NCBI RefSeq assembly: GCF_021976095.1
Contig: NW_025813485.1
Span: forward strand, 1,054,001-1,118,000
Direction: 5' to 3'
DNA: 64,000 bases
Source: Xenia sp. Carnegie-2017
Lineage: Eukaryota; Cnidaria; Anthozoa; Malacalcyonacea; Xeniidae
Shown here: one piece after another, positions 53,501 through 56,500 of the stretch
Layout of the letters: every line of letters begins with the position of its first letter
How positions within the stretch are numbered: the stretch's first letter is position 1
Translations under genes and position numbers: made by a program
The notes under the pieces: model-generated
Seen by the model: the letters and a program-made list of their open reading frames with translations, nothing else
What the model was told of the DNA's origin: nothing
Databases searched by the model: none

Positions 53501-56500
53501 TAGTGCCTCATATGATTGTAGTGATGGTTGACTGAAGTGATATGATTGTAGGGATGGTTGACTGCAGTGATGATTGTAGGGATGGTTGATTGTAGTGATA
53601 TGATTGCAGAGATGGTTGATCGTAGTGATATGATTGTACGGATGGTTCATTGTAGTGATGATTGTAGAGATGGTTGATCGTAGTGATTGTAGAGATGGTT
53701 GACTGCAATGATTGTAGGGATGGTTGACTGCAATGATTGTAGAGATGGTTGACTGCAATGATTGTAGAGATGGTTGACTGCAATGATTGTAGAGTTGGTT
53801 GACTGCAATGATGGTAGAGATGGTTGACTGCAATGATTGTAGAGATGGTTGACTGCAATGATGGTAGAGATGGTTGACTGCAATGATGGTAGAGATGGTT
53901 GATTGTAGTGATTGTAGAGATGGTTGATTGTAATGATTGTAGAGATGGTTGACTGCAATGATTGTAGAGATGGTTGACTGCAATGATTGTAGAGATGGTT
54001 GACTGCAATGATGGTAGAGATGGTTGACTGCAATGATTGTAGAGATGGTTGACTGCAATGATGGTAGAGATGGTTGACTGCAATGATTGTAGAGATGGTT
54101 GACTGCAATGATGGTAGAGATGGTTGACTGCAATGATGGTAGAGATGGTTGACTGCAATGATGGTAGAGATGGTTGATTGTAGTGATTGTAGAGATGGTT
54201 GACTGCAATGATTGTAGAGATGGTTGACTGCAATGATTGTAGAGATGGTTGATTGTAATGATGGTAGAGATGGTTGACTGCAATGATTGTAGAGATGGTT
54301 GACTGCAATGATGGTAGAGATGGTTGACTGCAATGATGGTAGAGATGGTTGATTGTAGTGATTGTAGAGATGGTTGACTGCAATGATTGTAGAGATGGTT
54401 GACTGCAATGATTGTAGAGATGGTTGACTGCAATGATTGTAGAGATGGTTGACTGCAATGATTGTAGAGATGATCTTCAAGATCCCATCAGTTACTTCTT
54501 GAAAATTACGTAAAACAAGTTTACGATGTATAGACGTTTTTCTAACCTTGCACCACCGGATATTACTCCAGATTTCTGAAACATGGTACCGTCAAGTGAA
54601 ATAGTCTTCTTTCTTTCATAACCACTATATGCAAGTCTTCTAGCTTCGTCAACAGTGTCGCACACCAAAGCATTTCCGCACGCATATAATAGAGCACGCT
54701 GTTAAAATATTAATATACTGTAGTCAGATATAGCAATAGAACTTTATGCGTACGTACGTTGATACATTAACACAATCAATTAACGTAATCCTGAATAAAT
54801 TCATATTGTTTTCAAAAAAAAAAGTCATGAATGTTTTATTTATTACCTTCACTTGAGATTGTTCACATTTAATGATATCCATAACAAGTTTTGCTGTGCC
54901 CCCAGATTGTCGAAGTTTCTCATCGATTGTTTTCACTTGGATTGTGTCCAAAGGAAGAAATGTTATTGGATCACCATTCTATCACATGAAAAAAGGAAGA
55001 AATGTTATTGGATCACCATTCTATCACATGAAAAAAGGAAGAAATGTTATTGGATCACCATTCTATCACATGAAAAAGGAAGAAATGTTATTGGATCACC
55101 ATTCTATCACATGAAAATAAGGAAGAAATGTTATTGGATCACCATTCTATCACATGAAAAAAGGAAGAAATGTTATTGGATCACCATTCTATCACATGGA
55201 AAAAGGAAGAAATGTTATTGGATCACCATTCTATCACATGAAAAAGGAAGAAATGTTATTGGATCACCATTCTCTCACATGAAAAAGGAAGAAATGTTAT
55301 TGGATCACCATTCTATCACATGAAAAAGGAAGAAATGTTATTGGATCACCATTCTATCACATGGAAAAAGGAAGAAATGTTATTGGATCACCATTCTATC
55401 ACATGAAAAAAGGAAGAAATGTTATTGGATCACCATTCTCTCACATGAAAAAAGGAAGAAATGTTATTGGATCACCATTCTATCACATGAAAAAAGGAAG
55501 AAATGTTATTGGATCACCATTCTATCACATGGAAAAAGGAAGAAATGTTATTGGATCACCATTCTATCACATGAAAAAGGAAGAAATGTTATTGGATCAC
55601 CATTCTCTCACATGAAAAAAGGAAGAAATGTTATTGGATCACCATTCTATCACATGAAAAAGGAAGAAATGTTATTGGATCACCATTCTCTCACATGAAA
55701 AAGGAAGAAATGTTATTGGATCACCATTCTATCACATGAAAAAGGAAGAAATGTTATTGGATCACCATTCTCTCACATGAAAAAGGAAGAAATGTTATTG
55801 GATCACCATTCTATCACATGAAAAAGGAAGAAATGTTATTGGATCACCATTCTATCACATGAAAAAGGAAGAAATGTTATTGGATCACCATTCTATCACA
55901 TGAAAAAGGAAGAAATGTTATTGGATCACCATTCTATCACATGAAAAAGGAAGAAATGTTATTGGATTTTCATTTCACATCACCGTTTATGTACAGGTTC
56001 ACATAAATCAATAAGACATCCGTATACACCAGGAAATAGTCGCTTTAAACTATCAAGAATTTCTTGTTTTTTTTGAAATCTTTGATTCTCGTTTCTGTCG
56101 AATTTTGACTCGTTAATTTGAGACTGATAATCATCTGCTTTACTGCTCAGTTCATTGTACTTCTGCTCCGCCGTACTAGTATAAAACAATAATTAATCAA
56201 GTATCGAAATCCAGTAGGAAAGGGAAATTCAACATTTTTTGAAGACTTTTATCCTGTAATACTTACGTAATTACGTTGCTCAGTGTCTGCACCTCGATTT
56301 CGCTTGTTTTCAGTTTATCTTCGTTATTTCTGAATGATTCAGTTAGAAAAGTTAAAGTTCAAGACATTCAATTAAAAGTCTGCTATTGTAACAACCGCAC
56401 AAACCTGAGATGATCGAAAACCTTTTGTTTTCTTTCTGATAGTTGTTGCCTAAATAAATTCACAGTTCCTAAAACTCGCACCAATAATTAAAGAACGGTT

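Follow-up and report, generated by a model that had tools for sequence, protein, structure and literature searches.

A minisatellite of intron-end and exon-start copies lies where a hinge exon is missing from an assembled SMC1 gene of Xenia sp. Carnegie-2017

Analysing a stretch of 64,000 nucleotides from the cnidarian Xenia sp. Carnegie-2017 (hereafter the window; contig NW_025813485.1, positions 1,054,001 to 1,118,000 of the forward strand; GC content about 33%; positions below are those of the window), we found that an SMC1 gene carries a minisatellite of 25 tandem copies of a 41-43 bp unit, each copy combining the end of an intron with the start of the following hinge exon. Exactly at this array, the coding sequence of 34 conserved hinge residues (residues 530-563 of human SMC1A), about 103 nt, is absent. 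We consider it probable that the array is a young "mirage", the name given to minisatellites of exon-intron boundaries in lancelets, without an evolved function, and that the missing exon reflects either an assembly join or a deletion in the sampled haplotype rather than a gene that works without it.

Table 1. Features of the SMC1 locus and of a second splice-edge duplication in the window.
Feature	Positions	Strand	Basis
SMC1 gene, about 40 recognisable exons	47508..63673	-	tblastn and phase-aware spliced alignment with human SMC1A
SMC1 exon upstream of the array; ends in VHKR + CG (phase 2); donor GTGATG at 55983	55984..56175	-	tblastn, spliced alignment, CDS joining
GTGATGTGA, the sole 9 bases outside the array in the interval from the upstream exon to the first unit; about 103 nt of hinge coding sequence would be expected here	55975..55983	-	sequence, tblastn, spliced alignment, repeat search
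Minisatellite, 25 copies of intron end + exon start, last copy degenerate	54950..55974	-	TRF, unit list, core search, repeat-family search
23 decoy units, first bases 55020 to 55933; AATAAC, pyrimidine run, TGATAG (18) or TGAGAG (5)	54979..55943	-	unit list, acceptor scoring, site comparison
Authentic SMC1 hinge exon; phase-0 acceptor TGATAG at 54979-54984; first 29 nt = repeat founder	54847..54978	-	tblastn, spliced alignment
Second splice-edge duplication, 54 bp x 2, 100% identical, ABCC4-like gene	27455..27562	-	TRF

Read on the minus strand of the one assembled sequence, each unit comprises 12-14 nt of intron end (CATGTGATAG) and 28-29 nt of the SMC1 hinge exon (NGDPITFLP), which opens with AATGGTGATCC at its authentic position. 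Of the 25 copies, one is the authentic exon start (54950-54978), 23 are intact decoys and the terminal one is degenerate; a first-pass annotation had put the decoys at about 25. TRF returned a period of 41, 24.5 copies and 97% matches (54950-55967). The exon-derived core GGTGATCCAATAACATTTCTTCC had 24 exact matches and one with three mismatches, all on the minus strand (54953-55971), versus 0 matches in 100 shuffles, and was not found outside the array when the whole 64-kb window was searched. The unit was also absent from the viral and prokaryotic contigs searched. When cut at the start of the exon copy, 12 units measure 41 nt, 10 measure 42 nt and one measures 43 nt. The first 28 nt, which are exon-derived, are invariant across the 24 full copies, and the variants (T-run length, TTTTTCCATG, TGAGAG and one inserted A) are confined to the last 13-15 nt. 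Those common to several units (TGAGAG in 5, TTTTTCCATG in 3) follow each other in an irregular order along the array. All three substitution-type sites lie in the intron part of the unit (p ~0.03); a claim that the real exon homogenises the units would need more than three sites. The border unit (55944-55974), which adjoins the upstream exon, has diverged at 3 positions, and the interior exon cores are identical. The array itself is confirmed to be present in the assembled sequence, with its founder, homogeneity and anatomy.

The origin of the array from an SMC1 splice acceptor and exon start, proposed in the first-pass annotation, was borne out, the exon being identified by SMC1 homology and the exon part of the unit being 28-29 nt long. 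The hinge part of the human SMC1A query was confirmed against PDB chains. As to the paralogue, the annotation had named SMC1A; the downstream half of the gene shares 49% identity with human SMC1A and 45% with SMC1B, which makes SMC1B the less favoured but still a possible paralogue, so that we speak of SMC1 without choosing between the two. Outside the gap the exon phases are consistent and the frame is open through about 40 exons, which indicates that SMC1 is under constraint. The joined coding sequence downstream of the array (1998 nt) has no stop before its end, the one upstream of it (821 nt, from 58212) is open and ends in phase 2, and the median SMC1 intron is about 150 nt. The Walker A motif, the C-terminal motifs LSGGEK and DEIDAALD and most of the hinge could be read in an open frame, but the hinge lacks 34 residues. 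Because coiled-coil exons show little conservation, the gene model of the first half is uncertain around 60.7-58.2 kb and 62.6 kb. The exon that aligns with human residue 1 (63673-63690, minus strand) follows a splice acceptor and has no ATG; judging from this sequence, the start codon would have to come from a further exon upstream or from trans-splicing. SMC1 is essential in the animals studied.

The first-pass annotation overlooked the absence of the hinge segment that should precede the array. The upstream exon matches human residues up to 529 and the downstream exon matches from 564 (the alignment from position 54978 begins at residue 564/565); the segment between them, residues 530-563, is aligned in the solved SMC1, SMC4 and bacterial SMC hinges. 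Pfam SMC_hinge is accordingly matched at positions 49-116 of 116 here versus 4-116 in the human protein. The interval between the two flanking exons is 1005 bp, all of it array except 9 bp, and the upstream exon end and intron start read CATAAACG/GTGATGTGA. A permissive six-frame tblastn search did not find the segment 530-563 in the window, the best match (E=1.2) falling in an unrelated gene. We also considered the 9-20 nt that flank the donor as a further degenerate unit, a reading rejected because 13.6% of random genomic 16-mers match equally well. Furthermore, the donor at 55983 is in phase 2 and the acceptor at 54978 in phase 0, and their joining leads to a stop after 4 codons. Owing to the absence of the 34 residues and to these incompatible phases, the assembled sequence cannot encode a working SMC1, and whichever acceptor is chosen no frame is restored. 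As everything else in SMC1 is intact, it appears likelier that the assembly was joined across repeats, or that the sampled haplotype carries a deletion, than that a working gene is laid out in this way. It follows from the missing exon that the assembled array should not be taken at face value.

The acceptor strengths were scored with a position weight matrix (PWM) for which 38 further acceptors of this SMC1 gene were used. The authentic acceptor scores 4.8 bits, i.e. the 42nd percentile of the gene's own acceptors. An AG dinucleotide ends all 23 decoys, as TAG in 18 and as GAG in 5, so that TGATAG, which had been thought to occur in every unit, is replaced by TGAGAG in 5/23. The TAG decoys score 2.8-4.8 bits (most at the 21st-42nd percentile), and the GAG decoys are weaker (-1.6 to 0.4 bits). 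The nearest decoy is identical to the authentic site over 57 nt upstream and 29 nt downstream. Because of this identity and of the overlapping PWM scores of the TAG decoys, the local sequence cannot distinguish the authentic from the decoy acceptors. Each unit carries a branch-like AATAAC at -31 and a pyrimidine run, both of exon origin, which means that the authentic acceptor depends on copied exon sequence beyond 12-13 nt. The anatomy of decoys standing in series before the real exon, as first described, is thus upheld by the PWM overlap and the identical nearest decoy, but in the assembly it rests on a junction from which no SMC1 can be produced. The idea that the product might be the same whichever acceptor is used is refuted: in each of the three entry frames, all 23 decoys meet a stop after 1-18 codons, and only the authentic site can therefore be productive.

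The second splice-edge duplication of the window affects a donor. Its 54-bp unit comprises 27 nt of exon end (SFVVFLLGQ), the donor GTATAG and 27 nt of intron; the spliced peptide at this locus matches ABCC4 (E=3.6e-06), and use of the second donor would add V-stop. Together with the SMC1 acceptor, this ABCC4-like donor indicates that both types of exon edge are affected, in two genes within 64 kb. The window also holds many unrelated minisatellites, their units measuring 22-50 bp and being mostly intronic and without exon sequence (23896-25192, 28187-28690, 47831-48038, 53512-54472, 58525-60405 and 61183-61495); exon-edge content was looked for in the other SMC1 arrays and none was found. The array at 61183-61495 begins about 17 nt past an SMC1 donor site.

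In lancelets, mirages have been described in Adh3, globins, TnC and PGBD5, with units of 10-72 bp in Adh3 and of 150-160 bp in BflGb6, where the unit joins the intron 3' end to the exon 5' part and occurs 6 and 3 times in two haplotypes; BflGb9 is also a mirage (PMC3087553, PMC3902484). Mirages with AG/GT signals vary in length and leave splicing undisturbed as judged by RT-PCR, and one of them was mis-assembled in the draft genome (PMC3087553, PMC3902484). The claim that no exon-edge amplification had been described thus stands for cohesin but not for this kind of structure, and among the papers that a literature search listed there was no report of an SMC1 minisatellite.

The SMC1 array has the structural features of the mirage kind, namely head-to-tail units that span an exon edge and hold an AG signal, a homogenised, near-identical interior and a diverged border copy. 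As in BflGb6, its unit joins the intron 3' end to the exon 5' part; as in lancelets, 5' and 3' edges are both affected if the two cases of the window are taken together, and for one lancelet locus of this kind a draft assembly error has been recorded. Unlike BflGb6 with its 3-6 copies, the SMC1 array has 24 full copies, and unlike the lancelet mirages it sits in a cohesin subunit gene with a neighbouring exon missing. It resembles the ordinary intronic minisatellites (VNTRs) of the same SMC1 gene (25, 50 and 31 bp units) in size, homogeneity and number, but their units have no exon sequence. The potato RdRp gene is said to have gained an intron by tandem genomic duplication of an exon segment. 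There, as here, splice signals are copied in tandem and exon sequence may turn into new intron sequence; in contrast to that case, SMC1 shows an existing acceptor edge multiplied many times rather than a proto-splice site inside an exon, and no new intron position.

We propose that the array was founded when a 41-bp segment spanning the 3' splice site (29 nt of exon and 12 nt of intron) was duplicated in tandem, and that slippage or unequal exchange would then have expanded it and kept it nearly uniform. The array copies most likely remain intron in the transcripts, and the authentic edge would still be spliced as the sole copy that continues into a full exon, with a donor 132 nt away (exon definition). 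Use of a decoy would introduce a premature stop and presumably lead to mRNA decay. Several observations speak for this proposal, the closed decoy frames and the open remainder of SMC1 among them. The founder shares its 28-29 exon nt unchanged with the units. An independent splice-edge duplication occurs in the same window. The published mirages match the array in anatomy, vary in copy number from one haplotype to another, are normally spliced as judged by RT-PCR and include one mis-assembled case. On the other side, for an assembly join the lost exon would have to be flanked on either side by units of the array, and nothing else points to a second array; nearly all the flanking intron is lost too, so that a true deletion fits about as well. 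Most arrays of the window, moreover, stay clear of exon edges, so that only two count as mirages.

It is possible, though on balance doubtful, that the deletion is real, i.e. that this haplotype lost the 34-residue hinge exon, perhaps via the unstable array, leaving a null SMC1 allele in a heterozygote, or that the locus is a pseudogene or paralogue of very recent origin. At the junction the units follow cleanly on 9 nt of intron; several other arrays of 1-1.9 kb are gap-free, suggesting that the assembly copes with such lengths; and both mirage and minisatellite arrays are unstable. All the other recognisable SMC1 exons are, however, intact and open, and a null allele of an essential gene should rarely be met in one sampled haplotype. 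A bolder version, which we regard as unlikely, takes both the assembly and the haplotype as real: the expanding splice-edge minisatellite would have destroyed the neighbouring cohesin hinge exon, and mirage instability would recurrently yield null or dose-altered SMC1 alleles in the natural population. It is very unlikely that the assembler or the consensus step created the array or grossly inflated it: the missing exon does mark something wrong or unusual at the locus, but the common substitutions are irregularly ordered, as in true minisatellites, and the window holds many unrelated arrays in addition to an independent second splice-edge duplication. Least likely of all is an array of poison acceptors, whose frequent use would send a share of the SMC1 pre-mRNA to decay and whose length would tune the cohesin dose, for although the decoys are as strong as the authentic acceptor (21st-42nd percentile for most TAG decoys), precede it in the transcript and all meet early stops, lancelet mirages with splice signals reportedly do not disturb splicing, this young and homogeneous structure, known from one sequence, bears no sign of selection for an array, and the missing exon makes the local layout uncertain.

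If the array is a mirage, as we propose, the list of splice-edge minisatellites gains an essential gene and probably an animal outside lancelets, with a copy number far above that of the published globin case. It would also provide a natural test of how the spliceosome selects one of two dozen near-identical acceptors. This splice puzzle has a published precedent; the absent hinge exon is the unexplained and most useful point. The locus shows a practical danger as well: where an exon stands beside such an array, the assembly can lose it, and an essential gene then appears broken.

Elsewhere in the window, two Penelope-like GIY-YIG fragments were recognised by eye, at 4410-4847 (minus strand) and 18551-19033 (plus strand) (ASYIGETGRNLNIRLTEH, SRYIGETSRHLSTRIREH), the former having no Pfam match. 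The gene at 36727-41446 on the plus strand encodes an EF-hand-containing type II NADH dehydrogenase (NDH2); NDH2 has been lost in many animal lineages.
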